DNA from: Ideonella dechloratans
GTDB lineage: Bacteria; Pseudomonadota; Gammaproteobacteria; Burkholderiales; Burkholderiaceae_C
Assembly: GCF_021049305.1 (NCBI RefSeq)
Contig: NZ_CP088081.1
Coordinates: 1,488,001-1,552,000 of the forward strand
Length of the DNA stretch: 64,000 nt
Direction: 5' to 3'
The notes beneath the pieces are model-generated. The model was given only the letters and a program-made list of their open reading frames with translations, ran no database searches and had not been told where the DNA came from. Below are positions 1 to 9,935 of this stretch, one piece after another. A program made the position numbers and the translations under genes. Position 1 is the first letter of the stretch; every line of letters starts with the position of its first letter.

Positions 1-2
1 GC

Positions 3-1364
3 GTGGTCAACACCAAGGTCATCGGACTGCTGCTGCTGCAGAAGTACCTGCGTCCCGAATCGCTGCGCTTCCTGACCGTGTTCAGCTCGGTGGCCGGCCG
101 GTACGGCAACAGCGGCCAGTCCGACTACGCCACCGCCAACGAACTGATGAACCGCCTGTGCTGCCAGCTCTACCGTCGCTGGGGTGGTCAGGTCAACGTC
201 AACGCCCTGTGCTGGGGACCGTGGGGACCGACGATGTTCGGTGCCGGCATGGTGACCGCCGAGACCGAGGCCAAGTTCGCCGAGAAGGGCGTCTACCTGG
301 TGACGGCGGCCGACGGTCGTCAGCTGCTCAAGGACGAGTTGCTGCGCACCGACGACACCTACGTCGAGATCATCTGCGGTGCCGGCCCCTGGGAGCAACG
401 CGAGGCCGATCTGGGCCGCGTGCAGCTGCAGGCGCCCGCGGCGCCCGGCAAGGTGCTTGGCGCCCTGCTCGGGGCGGCGGAGATGATGACCCTGCCGATG
501 GGCGGTCAGGTGGTGAGCTTCGCCATCGACGCCAACCATGCCTACCTGCAGGAACACCGCATCGATGCGACCCCGGTGCTGCCGGCGGCCGTGGCGCTCG
601 AGTTGCTTTCCCAGGCCGGCCACGCGTTGTGGCCGGGCTGGCGTGTGGTCGAGGTCAAGGACTTCCGTCTGATGAAGGGCGTGGAGCTCAAGGAGGCCGT
701 GCGCCGCTTCGACATCGTGATCAACCCGCCGCCTTATGGCAGCGCGGAAGGTTTCGAGGTGGTGGCCACGCTGCAGAGCGAGCAGCAGGGCGGCAAGACG
801 GTGGTGCACTACAAAGCCGTGCTGCGGCTGGAGCAGCGCCTGCCCGAAGGTTTCAGCCACCCGGTGCGCGCGCGCTTCGAGAAGAAGCTGCCGGTGGCTC
901 AGGCCTATGACCAGTTCCTGTTCCACGGGCCGCGCTTCCAGGTGATGACGGCGCTCAAGGGTCTGTCGGCCGATGCCGCCGCCGCCACCGTGGTGCCGAG
1001 CGCGCCCCATGGCTGGCTGCGCGGCGTGCCGGCCGAGCATGACCGCTGGGTCTTCGACCCGGCGATCATCGATGCCGGTCCGCAACTGGCCATCGTCTGG
1101 GCGCGCGAGTTCCGCAACGAGACCTGCCTGCCGACCCGCTTCGGCCGGGTGGTGCGCTACGTGGACCAACTGCCTGAGCAGATGACCATGTCCCTGGAGG
1201 TGGTGCCGCTGGACGATGCCGGCCTGGTGGGCGCCAACGTCTATTACACCAACGCCGCCGGCGAGGTGGTGATGATGATCGAGGACATGCAGTGCATCGC
1301 CAGCCAGGCCCTGAACCGGCTGGGCGGCACCGCCGGTCAGCAGCCCAGCAAGTCGTCGGTGTGA
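3..1364 (+). CDS. Type I polyketide-synthase-like protein, C-terminal part (KR-DH), cut by left edge
   Basis: Only the last 453 codons are in the window; the reading frame is open to the left edge and the start lies upstream. The visible part opens inside a ketoreductase domain: serines near residues 28-29 (FSSVAGRYG) and the tyrosine near residue 42 (SDYATANE) match the KR catalytic Ser/Tyr. A double-hotdog dehydratase follows at about 160-440, with a histidine near 185 (EHRIDATPVLP, an HxxxGxxxxP motif with Gly replaced by Ala) and an aspartate near 357 (IIDAGPQ). KR reduces and DH dehydrates a carrier-bound beta-ketoacyl chain. No acyl carrier domain is visible here; one probably lies upstream. 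The next gene starts a few tens of bases later and supplies KS, AT, a second DH and a phosphopantetheinyl transferase, so the two proteins probably form one synthase. The product is unknown. Confidence 0.85.
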   Translation: MVNTKVIGLLLLQKYLRPESLRFLTVFSSVAGRYGNSGQSDYATANELMNRLCCQLYRRWGGQVNVNALCWGPWGPTMFGAGMVTAETEAKFAEKGVYLVTAADGRQLLKDELLRTDDTYVEIICGAGPWEQREADLGRVQLQAPAAPGKVLGALLGAAEMMTLPMGGQVVSFAIDANHAYLQEHRIDATPVLPAAVALELLSQAGHALWPGWRVVEVKDFRLMKGVELKEAVRRFDIVINPPPYGSAEGFEVVATLQSEQQGGKTVVHYKAVLRLEQRLPEGFSHPVRARFEKKLPVAQAYDQFLFHGPRFQVMTALKGLSADAAAATVVPSAPHGWLRGVPAEHDRWVFDPAIIDAGPQLAIVWAREFRNETCLPTRFGRVVRYVDQLPEQMTMSLEVVPLDDAGLVGANVYYTNAAGEVVMMIEDMQCIASQALNRLGGTAGQQPSKSSV

Positions 1365-1401
1365 GTTTGTTGCAATGACCGATCTTTCCCAAGGAGTCCC
1401 C

Positions 1402-4400
1402 GTGAGCGGGAACGCATCCACCCCGGCGCCGGTCGCCATCATCGGCATGGCCTGCATGTACCCGCAGGCCCCCAATCTGCAGGCGTTCTGGCGCAACATC
1501 ATCGGCGGGGTGGACGCGATCTCCGAGCCAGTGGACTCCTGGGATGCCCAGCGCTATCTGGACACCGGTCGCATCAAGACGCCCTACGGCGGCTATCTGC
1601 GGGACCTGTACCGCTTCGATCCGCGCGAGTTCGGCATCATGCCGAGCTCGCTGGACGGCGGCGAGCCGGACCAGTTCCTGGCCCTGAAGGTGGCGGCCGA
1701 GGCCCTGAAGGACGCGGGCTACCTCGACCCGTCCTACGACCACCGCGACACCGGCATCGTGCTGGGCCACAGCACCTACCTGCACCGCGGTCAGGGAACG
1801 CTGATCCAGAACCACATCGTGGTGGACCAGACGGTGGAGATCCTGCAGGCGGCCTGCCCCCACCTGGGGCCGGAGCAGCTGGAATCGGTGCGGGCGCTGC
1901 TGGCCAAGAAGCTGCCGGCCGCAACGCCCGACATCGCGCCGGGCCTGGTGCCCAATGTGATGACCGGCCGCATCGCCAACCGCCTGAACCTCAAGGGCCC
2001 CAACTACCTGGTGGACGCGGCCTGCTCGTCTTCGCTGCTGGCGGTCAATGCGGCCATGGACGAACTGCGCCTGGGGCGCAGCAAGCTGATGATCGCGGGC
2101 GGTGTCAATGCCTCCCTGCCGGCCGAGGTGGCGGTGATCTTCACCCAGCTGGGCGCGCTCAGCGGCCGCGGCAAGGTGCGCCCCTTCGAGAAGGGCAGCG
2201 ACGGTACGCTGCTGGGCGAAGGCCTGGGCATCGTGGTGCTCAAGCTGTTGGATGAAGCGCTGGCCGATGGCGACCGCATCTACGCGGTGCTGCGCGGCGT
2301 GGGTCAGTCCAGTGACGGGCGAGGCACTGGTCTGCTGGCCCCCAGCATGGAGGGTGAATCGCTGGCCGTCCAGCGCGCCTACGCCGAAAGCCGCGTGGAC
2401 CCGTCCACGGTGGGCCTGGTGGAGGCCCACGGCACGGGCATCCCGCTGGGTGACAAGACCGAGATCGCGTCGCTCAAGTCGGTGTTCGGGGCCCGCACGG
2501 CCGGGCAGGGCAGCATCGCGCTTGGTTCGGTGAAGTCCATGATCAGCCACACCATCCCGGCGGCGGGCATGGCCGGTCTGATCAAGGCCTCCCTGGCACT
2601 GCACCACAAGGTGCTGCCACCGATGCTGTGCGACGAGGTCAACACCGAGCTGGGCATCGACGACACGACGCTCTACGTCAACAACGAAACCCGGCCCTGG
2701 ATCACCCCTCAGGGCGCACCGCGCCGCGCGGGGGTGAATTCCTTCGGTTTCGGCGGCATCAACACCCACGCCGTGCTGGAAGAGGCCCCGGTGGCTGCGG
2801 CCAAGCCGGCGCGCTGCATGCCCTGGCCGTCCGAGCTGTGCGTGCTCGCGGCTGACACGACCGAGGCCCTGGTCGAGCGCATCGCGCAGGTCCAGGCCTG
2901 GCTGACCGCCCGCACCGATCTGTCGATGGGCGACATCGCCGCCTCGCTGGCCGGTCAGGTGGGCGAGGGCGCCTGTCGCCTGGCCATCGTCGCCAGCGAC
3001 GCTGCCGGGCTGAACAAGCAGCTGCAGCAGGCGCTCAAGAAGCTGGGCAGCGGTGGCGCCACCTCCTGGGCCACCCGCGGCGGCATGTTCTACAGCGCGC
3101 AGCCGCTGGAGGGCAAGCTGGCCTTCATCTTCCCGGGCGAGGGCTCGCAGTACAGCGCCATGCTGTCGGACATGGCCCAGTGCTTCGATGATGTGCGCGA
3201 CTGGCTGGACTTCTGGTGCGGCCTGTACCCGGATGTGCCGGGCGAGCGCCGCACCGACATCGCCTTCCCGCCGCCCACCGGCCTGAGTGAGGCGCGTCGT
3301 GCCGAACTCGAGCGGCGCATGCACGACATGGACGTCGGCTCCGAAGCCGTGTTCGTGGGCGCGCAGGCGCTCAATGCCCTGCTGGGCACGATGGGCGTGC
3401 AGCCTGACGTGATGCTGGGCCACAGCTCGGGCGAGTCGTCGGCGCTGGCCGCCTCCGGCGCCATTCCTGCGGCGTCTTCGCAGGAGCTGGCCGAGTTCAT
3501 CCGCGAGCTCAACCGCGTCTACCGTGAGGAGTTGGCCAACGGCTCGATCCCGACCGGCGCCTTGCTGGCCGTGGGTGCCATGGACCGTCCCAGCCTGGAT
3601 CAGCACCTGGCCGAAAGCGGCCCGGGCGTGGTCGTGGCCATGGACAACTGTGCCAACCAGGTGATCCTGTACGGCGCGGCCGATGTGATGGCCACGCTGC
3701 AGCAGCGTCTGACCCAGGCCGGCGCCATCTGCATGCCGCTGCCCTTCGACCGCGGCTACCACACGCCGGCCTTCGACACCGTCACCAAGGCCTTCCTGAA
3801 GTACTACAAGGCCATCAAGCTGGGCTCGCCCCGCGTGCCGCTGTACTCCTGCGCCACCACCGGCCTGTTCCCGGACGGCGCCACCGCCATCCGGCAGACG
3901 GCCGCGTCGCAGTGGTCCACCACGGTGCGTTTCCGCGAGACGATCCAGAAGATGCACGACGACGGCGTGCGCTGGTTCATCGAGGTCGGCCCCTCGGCCA
4001 ACCTGACGGCTTTCGTGAACGACATTCTGGCCGGGCGCGACTACGTGGCCGTAGCCACCAACCAGCGCAAGCGTCCCGGCGTGGACCAGTTCCTGATGGT
4101 GCTGGGCCAGCTCTGGGTCAACCGCAAGCCGGTCGCGCTGGGCAAGCTGTTCGAGCAGCGTGCGCTCACGCAGGTGCCGCTGGGCGACCTGTCGGTGCCC
4201 AAGGCCAAGGGCATTCTGCTGGACAACACCATGCCGCAGATGCACCTGACCGAGGCGGAGCGCGCCCAGCTGGGCACGCTGGCCGCACCAGGCGTGGTGC
4301 AGGCCGTGGCCGCACCGGTCCAGGCGGCGGCTGTCGAAGCGGCCGTGCCCCTGGCGGCGGCTGCGCCGGCCGTTGCTGCCCCTGCACCCACGGCGGTGGA

Positions 4401-6228
4401 GGCCACCGAGGATGCCGAGCTGGCGCTGCGTCAGCAGGTCATGGGCGAGTACTTCGACATGATGCGTGGCTTCCTGGCCCAGCAGCAGTCGGTGATGGAT
4501 CGCCTCCAGCCCGAAGCTTTCGAGGGGGCCGAACCCCAGGATCTGGATCCGGTGACGGAGGCCACGGGCTTCCTGGACGAGATCCTCGAGCAGGATGCCG
4601 ACCATCTGGTGGCGCGCTGCACCCTGAACCTGGCCAAGGACAACTTCCTGCGCGACCATGTGCTGTCCGGGCGGGTGGATCCCCAGGACGCGGTGCTGGG
4701 CCTGTCCTGTGTCCCGATGATGGTCAGCCTGGAAATCATGGCCCAGGCTTGCGCGGCCCTGGCCGGCAATGTCAACGTCACGGTGGTCGAGCATGTGCGC
4801 GCCTTCGACTGGATCGCGCTCGACGCGGGCGAGGTCGCGTTGACCGTCGAGGCCCGGCTGGTCGATGCGGCCCAGCAGCGCTACGCCGCCGTGCTGTCCG
4901 GTCCGTCCGGCAAGCTGGTCAGCGGCGAGTTCCTGTTCCAGCCGGTCTGGCAACTCCCGGGATTGGCCTCGCTGAGCGAATGGCGCAGCTCCCTGTGGAA
5001 CGACGAGGAGCTCTACACCTGCGGCATGTTCCACGGCCCGGTGTTCCAGAGCATCACCCACATCGACGGCTGGGACGACGCCGGCATCGACTGCCAGCTC
5101 TCGCCGGTGAGCCTGCGTGACTTCTTCGTGCCGGGCCAACCGACCCGGCTGGTGCTGAACCCGGTGCTGCTGGACGCCATGGGGCAGCTCGCCGCCTACT
5201 GGATCGCCCAGTTCGCCGGCACGGACTTCAACTGCTTCCCGTCGACCATCGACCGCATCGAGCTCTACAGCCCCTGTCCGGCCGACCTGCCGAACTTGCG
5301 CCTGCTGGCCCGCCAGCATTCGCTGGATCCGTCGAGCAACGAGGTCTCGGCCCCCCGGGCCTGGCAGTTCGAGTGCCTGGACACCCAGGGCCAGCCGCTG
5401 GTGCGGGTGAGCAATCTGGTGAATGTCTTCTTCCCGGTGCCCAACCGCTTCTACCAGGTGCGGCGCGACCCGCTGCAGGGCTGGCTGGGCCAACCCATGG
5501 CCGCGGGGGCCGAGCGCGGCACCCTGGTCTGGGCACTGGAGCACCTGCCGGAGGACTTCTGCAGCCAGTCGGCCAACATCTTCCTGCGCATCCTGGCCCA
5601 CATCTACCTGAGCGCGGAAGAGCGCGAGGCCTGGGCGGCATTGACCGGCAACGCCCGGCACAAGCGGCAGTGGCTACTGGGGCGCGCCTGCATCAAGGAG
5701 GCGGTGCGCTACTGGGTGGTCCAGCAAACGGGTGAATGGCTGTACTCCTCCGAGATCGAGGTGCGCCACGACGCCCTGGGTGCCCCCTGGGTGGATGGTT
5801 GGTGGCGTGACCAGCTGATCGCAGCTCCGGAGATTTCGCTGACCCACAACGATTGGGGCAGCGTGGTGGCGGTCAATCCGCCCCAGGTGCCCGTGGGGGT
5901 GGATGCCGAGCAGTGGGGACGCATCCGCAGCCCGGAACTGTTCGCAGCCTCGCTCAGCGAGCAAGAGCGTTCGGCCCTTGGCGCGATTCCTGCTGGGCAG
6001 CAGAGTGAACATCTGCTGGCCCTGTGGTGCGCCAAGGAGGCGGCGGCGAAATGCCTGGGCACAGGACTGCAGGGGCAGCCCGAGAAGTTCGAGGTTCGCT
6101 TCCTGGATGCCGCAGGACACAGCGCCCAGGTGGTGCATGACGACATGCAGATGGAGGTTTCCTTGTACAGGGATGCCCAGACCGTGATCGCCCTGGCTGT
6201 CGAGCAGGGCGGCGCGGAGGTGTCCTGA
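1402..6228 (+). CDS. Type I polyketide synthase, KS-AT-DH with fused C-terminal phosphopantetheinyl transferase
   Basis: About 1608 residues. Domains in order: ketosynthase (about 15-450) with Cys208 in DAACSSS, His343 in EAHGTG and His383 in MISHTIPAAG; acyltransferase (about 570-890) with Ser675 in GHSSGES; an Ala/Pro-rich linker; a hotdog dehydratase with His1086 (FLRDHVL) and Asp1258 (LLDAMGQ); and a C-terminal Sfp-like domain with Asp1501/Glu1503 (VGVDAEQ) and WCAKEAAAK near 1542-1550. PPTases attach phosphopantetheine to carrier domains, so this enzyme may activate its own synthase. No ACP motif is seen in this chain. I chose GTG 1402 because AAGGAG sits 5 nt upstream; an in-frame ATG at 1375 lacks a ribosome site. 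The layout recalls PUFA and enediyne synthases but matches neither. Domain calls are firm; the product is unknown. Confidence 0.88.
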   Translation: MSGNASTPAPVAIIGMACMYPQAPNLQAFWRNIIGGVDAISEPVDSWDAQRYLDTGRIKTPYGGYLRDLYRFDPREFGIMPSSLDGGEPDQFLALKVAAEALKDAGYLDPSYDHRDTGIVLGHSTYLHRGQGTLIQNHIVVDQTVEILQAACPHLGPEQLESVRALLAKKLPAATPDIAPGLVPNVMTGRIANRLNLKGPNYLVDAACSSSLLAVNAAMDELRLGRSKLMIAGGVNASLPAEVAVIFTQLGALSGRGKVRPFEKGSDGTLLGEGLGIVVLKLLDEALADGDRIYAVLRGVGQSSDGRGTGLLAPSMEGESLAVQRAYAESRVDPSTVGLVEAHGTGIPLGDKTEIASLKSVFGARTAGQGSIALGSVKSMISHTIPAAGMAGLIKASLALHHKVLPPMLCDEVNTELGIDDTTLYVNNETRPWITPQGAPRRAGVNSFGFGGINTHAVLEEAPVAAAKPARCMPWPSELCVLAADTTEALVERIAQVQAWLTARTDLSMGDIAASLAGQVGEGACRLAIVASDAAGLNKQLQQALKKLGSGGATSWATRGGMFYSAQPLEGKLAFIFPGEGSQYSAMLSDMAQCFDDVRDWLDFWCGLYPDVPGERRTDIAFPPPTGLSEARRAELERRMHDMDVGSEAVFVGAQALNALLGTMGVQPDVMLGHSSGESSALAASGAIPAASSQELAEFIRELNRVYREELANGSIPTGALLAVGAMDRPSLDQHLAESGPGVVVAMDNCANQVILYGAADVMATLQQRLTQAGAICMPLPFDRGYHTPAFDTVTKAFLKYYKAIKLGSPRVPLYSCATTGLFPDGATAIRQTAASQWSTTVRFRETIQKMHDDGVRWFIEVGPSANLTAFVNDILAGRDYVAVATNQRKRPGVDQFLMVLGQLWVNRKPVALGKLFEQRALTQVPLGDLSVPKAKGILLDNTMPQMHLTEAERAQLGTLAAPGVVQAVAAPVQAAAVEAAVPLAAAAPAVAAPAPTAVEATEDAELALRQQVMGEYFDMMRGFLAQQQSVMDRLQPEAFEGAEPQDLDPVTEATGFLDEILEQDADHLVARCTLNLAKDNFLRDHVLSGRVDPQDAVLGLSCVPMMVSLEIMAQACAALAGNVNVTVVEHVRAFDWIALDAGEVALTVEARLVDAAQQRYAAVLSGPSGKLVSGEFLFQPVWQLPGLASLSEWRSSLWNDEELYTCGMFHGPVFQSITHIDGWDDAGIDCQLSPVSLRDFFVPGQPTRLVLNPVLLDAMGQLAAYWIAQFAGTDFNCFPSTIDRIELYSPCPADLPNLRLLARQHSLDPSSNEVSAPRAWQFECLDTQGQPLVRVSNLVNVFFPVPNRFYQVRRDPLQGWLGQPMAAGAERGTLVWALEHLPEDFCSQSANIFLRILAHIYLSAEEREAWAALTGNARHKRQWLLGRACIKEAVRYWVVQQTGEWLYSSEIEVRHDALGAPWVDGWWRDQLIAAPEISLTHNDWGSVVAVNPPQVPVGVDAEQWGRIRSPELFAASLSEQERSALGAIPAGQQSEHLLALWCAKEAAAKCLGTGLQGQPEKFEVRFLDAAGHSAQVVHDDMQMEVSLYRDAQTVIALAVEQGGAEVS

Positions 6229-6382: not shown

Positions 6383-7465
6383 ATGCCCGTCGCACAAGTC
6401 AATGGCGTCCGTCTGAACTATGTTCAGATGGAGCCGCAGAACGCCGAGGGCGAGGTCGAAGACCTCGTGATGGTGCATGGTCTGGCCACCAACCTCGCGT
6501 TCTGGTACTTCCACTACGCGCCGGTGTTCTCACAGCGCTTCCGGGTCACCCTGTATGACCTGCGCGGCCATGGGCGCTCGGAGATGACGCCGGGCGGCTA
6601 CACCCCGCCGCAACAGGCCCAGGACCTGCTGGGCCTGATGGACCACCTGGGCATTGCCCGGGCCCACTTCCTGTCCCACAGCTACGGGGGCGTGATCACG
6701 CTGAACGCGGCCTGCCTGGCCCCCGAGCGCTTCCGCAGCCTGGTGCTGGCGGACACGCACATTTCGGCGGCTCGCCACCAGCGTCAGTGGGAGGCCGGCC
6801 AGTTCGGCGAGGAGATGCAGGCCATCCTGCAGGCCCACCACATCCATCTGGACACGCGCGACCCGTACTTCGGCTACAAGCTGCTGACGGAGGTGGCGCA
6901 TCTGCAACTGCGCAGCGAAGAGGTGCCGCCCGCGCTGGCCGAGCTGGTGAGTCCCTTCATCGGCAAGTACGGCAACCGCACTGCCAGCCAGTGGATCCGC
7001 CTGATGGACCAGACCGAGGCCGGCAAGGAGTTGATGGGCAGCGACGACGGCCTGCGGCTGGAGGAATTGCGCAAGCTCGCCTTCCCGATCATGGCGATGT
7101 ACGGCGACCATTCGCAGGCACGCCTGACCGGCCGTGAGCTGCTCAATGTCTGGGGCCATGCGGTGTTCCGCCGGGTGCCCGACGGCGGGCACTTCTTCCC
7201 GTCCTCGCGCCCCAAGGAACTGATCCATGGCTGCGAGCGCTTCTGGGGAGGAGAATTCCACGCGCGGCACCGTCAGCGGGCCGGCGAGGCGAAGAAGAAC
7301 TTTTTCCGCAGCGACCGGATCATCCAGTCCGGCGATGCGTGGTACTTCATGACACGTGAACAGGCCCGGGTGGGGCCGGCCGCCAGCCGGGAGGAGGCCG
7401 AGCAACTGCTTGCTTCCTTCATGGCGGCCATGGCAACGGAAGAACAGAGTGCGGCGGCCGTCTAA
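6383..7465 (+). CDS. Alpha/beta hydrolase of the polyketide cluster
   Basis: 360 residues, no signal peptide, so probably cytoplasmic. The alpha/beta-hydrolase fold is clear: an oxyanion stretch (MVHGLATN), the nucleophile elbow SHSYGG with Ser100, an acidic residue in MYGDHSQ and the catalytic histidine in PDGGHFF. The elbow has Ser in place of the usual first Gly. Beyond residue 290 there is a charged tail (ARHRQRAGEAKKN) not typical of the family. GGAGTAA lies upstream of the ATG. It lies about 150 bp after the synthase on the same strand and overlaps the next gene by 17 bp. A role in releasing or trimming the polyketide chain is inferred from position only; a general esterase is equally compatible with the sequence. 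Confidence 0.75.
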   Translation: MPVAQVNGVRLNYVQMEPQNAEGEVEDLVMVHGLATNLAFWYFHYAPVFSQRFRVTLYDLRGHGRSEMTPGGYTPPQQAQDLLGLMDHLGIARAHFLSHSYGGVITLNAACLAPERFRSLVLADTHISAARHQRQWEAGQFGEEMQAILQAHHIHLDTRDPYFGYKLLTEVAHLQLRSEEVPPALAELVSPFIGKYGNRTASQWIRLMDQTEAGKELMGSDDGLRLEELRKLAFPIMAMYGDHSQARLTGRELLNVWGHAVFRRVPDGGHFFPSSRPKELIHGCERFWGGEFHARHRQRAGEAKKNFFRSDRIIQSGDAWYFMTREQARVGPAASREEAEQLLASFMAAMATEEQSAAAV

Positions 7466-8906
7466 CAAGCTTGGGATCTATCCGGGGTTCAGTCAGCGCG
7501 ATTTCCGCCTGATCGCGCATGGGGGGTTCGGGGATGGCCTGAATGCCTACGCGCATTCGATGGCCTACTACAAGGACCATCTCTATGTCGCCACCACCCG
7601 GGGCAACTTCCCCTTCATGAAGGCGCGCCTGCCCATCGGCATGGACGTCTGGCCGGTGGAGTGCCCGGAAAGCCCCTTCGATCTCGACATGCATGCCGAG
7701 ATCTGGCGCTACACGCCGGCCGAGAACAGCTGGGAGAAGGTCTTCAAGGCGCCGACCATCATCGGCAGCCACGGCAAGCCCATTCCCCGCGAGCTGGGTT
7801 TCCGCGGCATGGTGGTGTACCAGCCCACGCCCACCTCCGAGCCGGAGCTGTTCGTGAGCACCTGGTCTCCCGCCCGGGGGCCGGGGCCCAACATCCTGCG
7901 CTCGACCGATGGCCGAAACTTCGAGCCGACCTGCGAGCCGGGCCTGGGGGGCTTGCCCGTCACGACCATCCGCACCATGGTGCCCTTCAAGGGTCGCATG
8001 TTCACCACCCCGGCAGGCTCGCGCGGGGGCAACCCGAACGTCTCGGCCCACTCGGTGGTGTACGAGAGTTCCGATCCCGGCAGCGGCGAGTGGGAGCCGG
8101 TGTCCGATTTCGGTTTCGGTGATGCGGGCAACAAGACCATCTTCGAGATGGCCGGTTTTGGTGACCACCTCTATGTGGGCACCTTCAACCTCGAAGGCTT
8201 CCAGATCTGGCGCAGCACGGTCGAAGGCCCCAAGCCCTATGTGTGGGAGAAGGTCGTCGAAAAGGGCGCCTACCGCGGGCCGCTGAACCAGTGCGTGCTG
8301 AGCCTGTATCCGTTCAAGGGCCACCTCTATGTGGGCGGCGGCATCCAGGGCGGTGGTGTGGACACGCAGAACCGCATCGGCCCGGCGCCGCCGGAGATGA
8401 TCCGCATCGCGCCGGACGGTCACTGGGACCTGCTGGTGGGCGAGAGCCGCGACACGCCGATCGGACGCAAGGAGGCCCTGTCGGGCTGGTTGCCGGGCTT
8501 CGACAACTTCTTCAACGGCTACTTCTGGCGCATGTGCGCACACGAGGGCTGGCTCTACATGGGCACCTTCGAGTGGAGTTCCGTTCTGGGCTACGCCAAC
8601 CGTCGCCGCTGGCCGCCGGCCTTCACCAACATCGTCAACAAGCTCACGCCGGAATTCCTGCTGGAACATTCTTGCGGCTTTGACCTGTACCGCAGCTACG
8701 ACGGCGTGAACTGGGTGCCGGTGACGACCAATGGCATGGGCAACCCGTACAACATGGGGCTGCGCACCCTGGTGTCGACGCCGCATGGCATGTTCATTGG
8801 CACGGCCAACCCCTTCGGGCCGAAGATCATGCCGTTGGGCGGGGACCGCTATGTGCCCAACCCGCGGGGGGGATGCGAGGTCTTCCTGGCCTCTTCGGAT
8901 GCCTGA
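7449..8906 (+). CDS. Unrecognised protein with repeated propeller-like HLYVG blades
   Basis: About 485 residues; I do not recognise the family. A short motif recurs: DHLYVATTRG, DHLYVGTFN, GHLYVGGGI, GWLYMGTFE and HGMFIGTANP, spaced roughly one beta-propeller blade apart and followed by aromatic/charged strands such as QIWRS. This suggests a repeat beta-propeller or sialidase-like fold. No signal peptide is obvious with the chosen start. I place the start at GTG 7449, with GGAAG 6 nt upstream, overlapping the preceding hydrolase gene by 17 bp; longer in-frame starts give arginine-rich nonsense. The overlap implies translational coupling with the hydrolase and hence a role in the polyketide-like pathway. 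That role (enzyme, scaffold or binding protein) is unknown. Confidence 0.65.
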   Translation: MRRPSNKLGIYPGFSQRDFRLIAHGGFGDGLNAYAHSMAYYKDHLYVATTRGNFPFMKARLPIGMDVWPVECPESPFDLDMHAEIWRYTPAENSWEKVFKAPTIIGSHGKPIPRELGFRGMVVYQPTPTSEPELFVSTWSPARGPGPNILRSTDGRNFEPTCEPGLGGLPVTTIRTMVPFKGRMFTTPAGSRGGNPNVSAHSVVYESSDPGSGEWEPVSDFGFGDAGNKTIFEMAGFGDHLYVGTFNLEGFQIWRSTVEGPKPYVWEKVVEKGAYRGPLNQCVLSLYPFKGHLYVGGGIQGGGVDTQNRIGPAPPEMIRIAPDGHWDLLVGESRDTPIGRKEALSGWLPGFDNFFNGYFWRMCAHEGWLYMGTFEWSSVLGYANRRRWPPAFTNIVNKLTPEFLLEHSCGFDLYRSYDGVNWVPVTTNGMGNPYNMGLRTLVSTPHGMFIGTANPFGPKIMPLGGDRYVPNPRGGCEVFLASSDA

Positions 8907-8984
8907 GGTGCCCGGCGTGTCAACCGCCCTGGGCCCCCGGCGCGTTGGACGGTGCATGTGTTGCGCCGTCGCAAAGGATCATTC

Positions 8985-9935
8985 ATGCACGATCGAAGCA
9001 AGCGTTGGGCCCTGGCTGCTCTGGGGGGGCTGCTCATGACCCCGGCCTTTGGCGGACCTCTGCGGGACGCGATCGTGGACCGCGTGCTGTCCCGCCGTAT
9101 CGAGGCGGCACAGGAAAGCGGCGAATTTGGCGAAGGCAAGTCCGAGCCGCTGACCCTGCCGTCCTATGTGAAGGCCCAGTTGGACGTCAGCTATGGCGCC
9201 GATCCGGCCCAGCGCCTGGACGTCTACATGCCTTCGGTGCGCAATGGCAACGCGCCCATGCCCGTGATCTTCATGGTGCATGGCGGGGCCTGGATGATCG
9301 GTGACAAATCCACGGCCAACGTGGTGATGAACAAGATCACCCGCTGGATCCCCAAGGGCTATGTGGTGGTTTGCCCGAACTACCGCATGCTGCCCAAGAC
9401 CGACGTGCAGGGCGAGGTCGACGACGTGGGCAAGGCATTGGCCTACGCCCAATCCCATGCGGCCGACTGGGGCGGCGATGCCAGCCGCTTCGTGCTGATG
9501 GGGCACTCGGCCGGCGCCCACCTGGTGTCCCTGATTTCCGCTGCGCCGGAACTGGCGCTGAACCAGGGGGCCCGCCCCTGGCTGGGCACCGTGTCGCTGG
9601 ACAGTGCTTCGATGGACGTCGTGCGCACCATGCAGGAGAAGCATTACAGCTTCTACGACAAGGTGTTCGGCTCGGACCGGGGTTTCTGGCAGCAGGTGTC
9701 GCCCTATGGGCGACTGCGCAAGGCGCCGGCACCCATGATGCTGGTGTGCTCCACCAAGCGCGCGGACTCCTGTCCCCAGGCGCGCAGCTTCGCCGACAAG
9801 GTGAACGCGCTGGGCGGCAAGGCCACGGTCTTGCCGGTGGACCTCACCCATGCCGACGTGAACAAGAAGCTGGGTGAGTCCAGCGCTTACACCGATGCGG
9901 TCGAGGGCTTTCTGCGCAGCATCGGCCTGAACTGA
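8985..9935 (+). CDS. Exported alpha/beta hydrolase, esterase/lipase type
   Basis: 316 residues from ATG 8985, which has AAAGGA a few bases upstream; an ATG at 8952 in frame lacks this. The N-terminus has a charged start (MHDRSKR) and a hydrophobic stretch ending near PAFGG, consistent with a Sec signal peptide. The rest is a hormone-sensitive-lipase/carboxylesterase-type hydrolase: the oxyanion motif HGGAW, the nucleophile in GHSAGAH and a late histidine in LTHAD. Such enzymes cleave carboxylic esters. It follows the propeller-like gene by about 80 bp on the same strand and is probably the last gene of the cluster. Its 3' end overlaps the convergent next gene by 49 bp. The substrate is unknown; action in the periplasm is inferred from the signal. 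Confidence 0.75.
   Translation: MHDRSKRWALAALGGLLMTPAFGGPLRDAIVDRVLSRRIEAAQESGEFGEGKSEPLTLPSYVKAQLDVSYGADPAQRLDVYMPSVRNGNAPMPVIFMVHGGAWMIGDKSTANVVMNKITRWIPKGYVVVCPNYRMLPKTDVQGEVDDVGKALAYAQSHAADWGGDASRFVLMGHSAGAHLVSLISAAPELALNQGARPWLGTVSLDSASMDVVRTMQEKHYSFYDKVFGSDRGFWQQVSPYGRLRKAPAPMMLVCSTKRADSCPQARSFADKVNALGGKATVLPVDLTHADVNKKLGESSAYTDAVEGFLRSIGLN

Follow-up and report, generated by a model that had tools for sequence, protein, structure and literature searches.

A two-protein synthase of the fused PfaDA/PfaBC-PPTase layout at the edge of a 64,000-nucleotide stretch of the Ideonella dechloratans genome

Fusion of pfaD to pfaA, accompanied by a pfaBC fusion that also carries a phosphopantetheinyl transferase (PPTase) domain, has been described in Aquimarina sp. 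TRL1 and Flavobacterium sp. N502540, both Flavobacteriales (PMC13291983, JACS Au 2026), and is stated there to be closely similar to a cluster in Renibacterium salmoninarum that is itself uncharacterised and that PMC3098273 assigns to Type M. The former source also mentions that pfaD and pfaA are fused in Ottowia thiooxydans, a member of the Burkholderiales, and in both papers the products of the fused layout are called uncharacterised. The present analysis concerns a pair of adjoining genes at the left edge of a 64,000-nucleotide stretch of Ideonella dechloratans DNA (hereafter the window, C1:1488001-1552000 in a genome of 4,544,016 bases on two contigs), the products of which very probably form the two subunits of a fatty-acid-type polyketide synthase (PKS) that is likely to act iteratively, has this published layout and belongs with the 'secondary lipid synthases'. 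A sequence-only reading of the window had found the arrangement to match no named system; the layout is in fact already known from other bacteria (PMC13291983; PMC3098273), and the Ideonella synthase adds a member.

The left edge of the window falls inside the gene of protein 1, whose frame runs on upstream without a stop, and the window includes just the last ~454 residues. The whole frame comprises 2,800 codons (L007:10963-19365, equivalent to C1:1480962-1489364), and the starts of homologous annotated proteins make it likely that translation begins at codon 38, which would give a protein of ~2,763 amino acids. Its parts comprise an enoyl reductase (ER), a ketosynthase (KS), an acyltransferase (AT), an acyl carrier protein (ACP), a ketoreductase (KR) and a dehydratase (DH):

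Window 1..1364, plus strand: 3' end of protein 1 (fused PfaD-PfaA type), with the frame open upstream (Pfam; NCBIfam PfaA)
C1:1480962-1488000 (L007:10963-18001), plus strand: remainder of protein 1, left of the window, in the same open frame
Protein 1 residues 355-637: ER of the NMO/FabK type (Pfam)
Protein 1 residues 726-1116: KS (Pfam)
Protein 1 residues 1283-1581: AT (Pfam)
Protein 1 residues 1863-1907: ACP, single (Pfam)
Protein 1 residues 2199-2421: KR, whole (Pfam PF08659, 109.7 bits)
Protein 1 residues 2512-2782: DH (Pfam)
Window 6..227, plus strand: C-terminal part of the KR (Pfam PF08659, 43.3 bits)
Window 495..1307, plus strand: first DH (DH1), with the motifs HRIDATPVLP and IIDAGPQ (Pfam PF21089 and PF14765, 58.0 and 36.7 bits)

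The NMO-type ER and the KS thus share one frame, which is to say that PfaD is fused to PfaA. The sequence-only reading had assigned KR-DH to the first protein and KS-AT-DH-PPTase to the second; Pfam bears out both sets of domains, but the first protein had been cut by the window edge and also contains ER-KS-AT-ACP, and the KR taken to be split is intact, the edge simply passing through it. That reading had suggested looking upstream for the ACP and KS of protein 1, and both are present there in the 2,800-codon frame; it had also considered that a standard pfa cluster might lie there, and although no five-gene cluster was found, the upstream sequence does complete a PfaD-PfaA fusion. Within the active-site check, which covered residues of the KS, AT, ACP, KR, DH and PPTase domains, protein 1 retains the KS Cys and His, the AT Ser and His, the ACP Ser, the KR Ser-Tyr and the DH His and Asp. 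Only one ACP motif and one Pfam ACP stretch occur in its 2,800 residues, with no tandem ACPs. Among the 53 relatives' loci that could be scored, there is one ACP motif in 48, two in 2 and five in 3; five motifs are seen on protein 1 of the Solimonas relatives L099, L100 and L117, versus one here.

The DH1 motif has Ala at the position usually occupied by Gly, as the sequence-only reading had observed, but this is not telling. Among 61 relatives in which the motif was located (67 were searched, and L106 among the 61 looks like a chance match), the position is Gly in 36, Ala in 6, Asn in 6, Asp in 4 and another residue in 9, and this variability rules out the substitution as the sign of a special or dead DH1.

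Protein 2 starts 10 bases after the stop codon of protein 1 and lies wholly within the window:

Window 1375..6228, plus strand: protein 2 (fused PfaB/PfaC type with PPTase), 1,617 amino acids in a single frame (Pfam)
Window 1429..2628, plus strand: second KS (KS2), with Cys217, His352 and His392 present (Pfam, 195 and 119.3 bits)
Window 3124..4113, plus strand: second AT (AT2), with Ser684 and His796 present (Pfam PF00698, 80 bits)
Window 4555..5442, plus strand: second DH (DH2), with His1095 and Asp1267 present (Pfam, 35.4 bits)
Window 5452..6225, plus strand: PPTase domain, with the motifs GVDAE and WCAKEAAAK (Pfam PF01648, 64.7 bits, cut-off 25)

All seven KS2, AT2 and DH2 residues are invariant across the 121 sequences of an alignment (the query and 120 matches), as are Asp1510, Lys1554, Glu1555 and Lys1559 of the PPTase, with Glu1512 kept in 120; since the 120 matches are the best-listed of 1,569, these figures describe close kin. 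The C-terminal domain aligns with Sfp-type PPTases, as had been proposed: a profile search of the PDB with the domain matched AcpS, Sfp and PPTases of fungal fatty acid synthases (Sfp 1qr0, E 9.6e-8), while the NCBIfam PPTase-domain model scores 48.7 on the domain alone (above its cut-off of 45.35) and 41.8 on the whole protein (below it). Judged by its sequence, the domain is a genuine member of the Sfp/AcpS-type superfamily. It carries the motifs P1a (LGAP) and P1b' (ISLTH) together with GxDxE and WxxKE...K, whereas a motif search found neither P0 nor P1b ((F/S)NxSH). The P0 pattern must be considered loose, because it matched 2 of 20 rows including the domain of Beijerinckia, although Type P is reported in PMC3098273 to lack P0. 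The combination of P1a and P1b' is given in that source as typical of Type M-T PPTases, but the correspondence is not specific, because P1b' is described there as a PKS and nonribosomal peptide synthetase (NRPS) PPTase motif as well. The single KS of protein 2 has a complete active site and is not part of a pair of KS and chain length factor (CLF). The possibility that KS2 itself serves as a CLF was ruled out by the intact Cys217, His352 and His392, and by Pfam domains and the KS2 active-site residues no CLF was found.

These features bear on the alternative that the pair is a polyunsaturated fatty acid (PUFA) synthase whose genes have been rearranged, in which the second DH would isomerise double bonds and so protect them from the ER. 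Protein 1 passes the NCBIfam PfaA model TIGR02813 (1041.5 bits against a cut-off of 1010.1), and both an NMO-type ER and two DH domains are present; the Type A PUFA synthase pfaABCDE likewise has a PfaA-type KS-AT-ACP-KR and an NMO-type ER. It is described, however, with tandem ACPs, a KS-CLF pair and separate PfaD and PfaE (PMC3098273), where the Ideonella proteins and most of their relatives have one ACP, the KS2 active site is complete, and the ER and PPTase are fused into the two chains. A PPTase with P1a and P1b' but without P0 or P1b is also unlike those of the PUFA-making Types A, B and D as these are set out in PMC3098273, albeit with published exceptions such as Pseudoalteromonas sp. 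DS-12, in which the PPTase lies within pfaC. A PUFA synthase is, on balance, unlikely.

The enediyne synthases (PKSE) are single chains of the order KS-AT-ACP-KR-DH-PPTase and are not known to contain an ER. An enediyne- or polyene-type iterative synthase would account for the C-terminal PPTase and for the KS-AT-ACP-KR-DH order within protein 1, but it is hard to reconcile with the ER, the second KS-AT and the division of the chain between two proteins, and we regard it as extremely improbable. The earlier characterisation of the system as two proteins that make up a probably iterative synthase with a terminal PPTase, distinct from classical PUFA and enediyne synthases, stands.

Two plasmid-borne loci from outside the immediate relatives were also compared. 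The pair on a plasmid of Streptomyces sp. NBC_00984 (L123) shares the NMO-type ER-KS-AT-ACP-KR and KS-AT-DH-PPTase arrangements, followed by an alpha/beta hydrolase (about 34% identity over 78% for protein 2), but no DH was found on its protein 1, and an additional ACP gene, a glycosyltransferase and a methyltransferase are nearby. The locus on pBIND02 of Beijerinckia indica (L122), inferred to be the Type P (phenolic lipid) cluster of PMC3098273, combines an ER-KS-AT-ACP-KR chain with a DH-PPTase chain; it differs in lacking KS-AT on the second chain, in having two ACP stretches and in the two KAS III-like annotated genes between. Its ER-KS and DH-PPTase fusions and its P1a and P1b' motifs, common to both systems, are what would be expected if the Ideonella synthase supplied alkyl chains for phenolic lipids to a type III PKS, in the manner of ArsA/ArsD of Azotobacter (passages of PMC12358690 and PMC6274091 do not give the ArsA/ArsD domain order). 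Besides the absence of KS-AT from the second Type P protein, the KS1 of Beijerinckia falls outside the clade containing the Ideonella KS1, and none of the scanned neighbours is a type III PKS. The whole I. dechloratans genome contains no PF00195 type III PKS above the cut-off (one match, 20.3 against 27 bits), which speaks against a phenolic-lipid product. Such a role is accordingly highly improbable.

The fused layout itself recurs in loci of several phyla, as emerged from mining other genomes, a check that the sequence-only reading had suggested. A search with protein 2 gave 1,569 matches at E<=0.001 among 7,993 scored candidates, a total in which other KS-AT proteins may be counted, given that only the best 120 were listed. 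A scan of named genomes gave 194 stretches from 109 relatives, and retention of the best 80 left 79 loci, many from metagenome-assembled genomes, that span several phyla (Ideonella, Rubrivivax, Pseudomonas, Neptuniibacter, Lysobacter, Nitrosomonas, Nitrospira, Brocadia, Desulfobulbaceae, Rhodobacteraceae and others). All seven joins between domains are in frame, with one frame per protein, in 40 of the 79; in 26 of the other 39, ER and KS1 are not both visible. Where both are visible, ER and KS1 share a frame in 53/53 loci, and DH2 and PPTase do so in 74/75. The closest named loci by DH-PPTase identity are those of Ideonella sp. B508-1 (96%), I. oryzae (96%), I. benzenivorans (92%) and I. azotifigens (73%). 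The distribution is nonetheless patchy, because the DH-PPTase part occurs in 5 of 16 genomes of the genus, the present one included, and in 1 of 399 sampled from the order (E<=1e-40), namely the present genome itself.

In a tree of 54 KS rows, with Streptomyces and Beijerinckia as its only outside references, KS1 and KS2 are separated by a branch supported at 100/100, three loci excepted, and this division into two clades makes the KS1/KS2 pair seem old. The KS1/KS2 labels require four changes on the tree rather than one, and the additional changes are ascribed to L046, L081 and L118, each represented by two identical rows because the two queries hit a single position; these rows are retained in the tree and removed from the join counts. 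A plasmid search with protein 2 returned no record covering at least 80% of it in one place. Nor could a simple empty site be shown when the cluster's flanks, hemY and a WYL regulator, were located in Ideonella genomes: the two are about 156 kb apart in G003 and 51 kb apart in G004 (a single contig each) and on separate contigs in G002, G010, G012 and G014, while the regulator has no match at E<=1e-30 in G006 and G007.

To the left of the synthase lie an 823-residue HlyD-domain protein, an OEP gene and a sulfotransferase, followed by hemC, hemD, hemX and hemY; to the right are an alpha/beta hydrolase-DUF6316 protein, a protein of 477-485 residues that falls into no Pfam or NCBIfam family, an esterase and the WYL regulator:

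Window 6383..7465, plus strand: alpha/beta hydrolase with C-terminal DUF6316 (Pfam)
Window 7449..8906, plus strand: beta-propeller protein, start uncertain (7449 or a few codons later)
Window 8952..9935, plus strand: esterase of the BD-FAE/Abhydrolase_3 type (Pfam)
L007:4969-6168, left of the window: sulfotransferase (Pfam PF13469)
L007:8142-10613, left of the window: 823-residue HlyD-type adaptor joined to a domain with several hydrophobic stretches

The 823-residue protein also gives a weak metalloprotease match, with the HExxH motif absent. Neighbours were counted by tblastn in those 59 loci, out of 78 with a PPTase match, whose right-hand flank extends for 8 kb or more; the scan is blind to genes more than ~10 kb away, and low-identity hydrolase and OEP matches may be paralogues. 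The hydrolase is matched in 47 loci, always on the right and on the same strand, the OEP in 7 and the esterase in 14, which makes membership of the esterase in the cluster doubtful. The beta-propeller gene adjoins the synthase in 48 loci (43 on the same strand, 5 on the opposite one). Its protein, with no family in Pfam and NCBIfam scans, has a predicted beta-propeller fold (mean pLDDT 92.8) and is 62-77% identical to the synthase-adjoining copies of 17 aligned loci from several phyla, in which it is more conserved than the synthase domains; 1,210 homologues were found among 6,117 candidates. Of 11 Ideonella genomes searched, 3 contain it, at 100, 99 and 98% identity, and each of these also bears the synthase, whereas it was found in none of the 8 that lack the synthase; two further synthase-bearing genomes were omitted from this search.

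In some relatives a frame of 531-533 residues comes after the synthase (L047, L048, L049, L051 and L078); two of these frames were scanned, that of L048 being a PF01663 phosphodiesterase and that of L051 giving weak matches to the same superfamily. Alkaline-phosphatase-superfamily enzymes seen in relatives' clusters comprise the PF01663 phosphodiesterase (L048:11981-13579) and a PF00884 sulfatase (L049:18522-19343); none was seen in the Ideonella cluster here. No NRPS gene is present among the scanned neighbours. With the secondary lipid synthases of Aquimarina, Flavobacterium and Renibacterium the Ideonella pair shares both the pfaD-pfaA and the pfaBC-PPTase fusions, but those synthases belong to PKS-NRPS hybrid clusters or are uncharacterised, whereas here the propeller, hydrolase, sulfotransferase and HlyD-type genes adjoin.

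As a secondary lipid synthase, the two chains would act as one complex, the PPTase of protein 2 priming the ACP of protein 1 in trans, with malonyl loading, condensation, ketoreduction, dehydration and enoyl reduction repeated until a long and mostly saturated chain is built, which the adjacent alpha/beta hydrolase would then release or tailor. More tentatively, and from the neighbouring genes only, the upstream sulfotransferase and HlyD/OEP genes might serve to sulfate the product and carry it out of the cell, with some tailoring step performed by the beta-propeller protein. An unusual fatty-acid-like product, one part of the earlier suggestion, remains likely, while the polyene that was its other part is disfavoured because the complete protein 1 carries an ER domain. 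Several points weigh against this interpretation. Iteration, chain length and saturation are inferred, because no product is known for the layout, and the second DH, which a plain fatty acid synthase would not require, could allow double bonds to persist. The likeness to the Renibacterium, Frankia, Aquimarina and Ottowia systems is drawn from published descriptions of them. The sulfotransferase is matched in only 20 of the 59 loci and the HlyD-type protein in only 22, and joins are broken in some loci (AT1-KR in 7 by frame and 1 by a stop, KR-DH1 in 4, KS2-AT2 in 4, AT2-DH2 in 1 and DH2-PPTase in 1), either truly or through assembly errors.

It is possible, and we put it forward only tentatively, that the locus represents a widely transferred, undescribed cassette, shared by Ideonella, Rubrivivax, Neptuniibacter, Nitrospira, Brocadia and others, for the synthesis and export of a long-chain lipid bearing a sulfate group. 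Its core would be the fused PfaDA/PfaBC-PPTase synthase, accompanied by the hydrolase-DUF6316 protein and the strongly conserved propeller, which would represent a new type of tailoring enzyme, and joined in part of the loci by a phosphodiesterase/sulfatase-fold enzyme, a sulfotransferase and a HlyD-type exporter with a multi-spanning membrane domain. A literature search, judged from its listings, gave no paper apparently describing such surroundings. The seemingly unmatched layout can now be placed with the fused PfaDA/PfaBC-PPTase kind, and a synthase encoded compactly by two genes, able to prime itself and present in a culturable genus, would be a convenient one in which to find a product.

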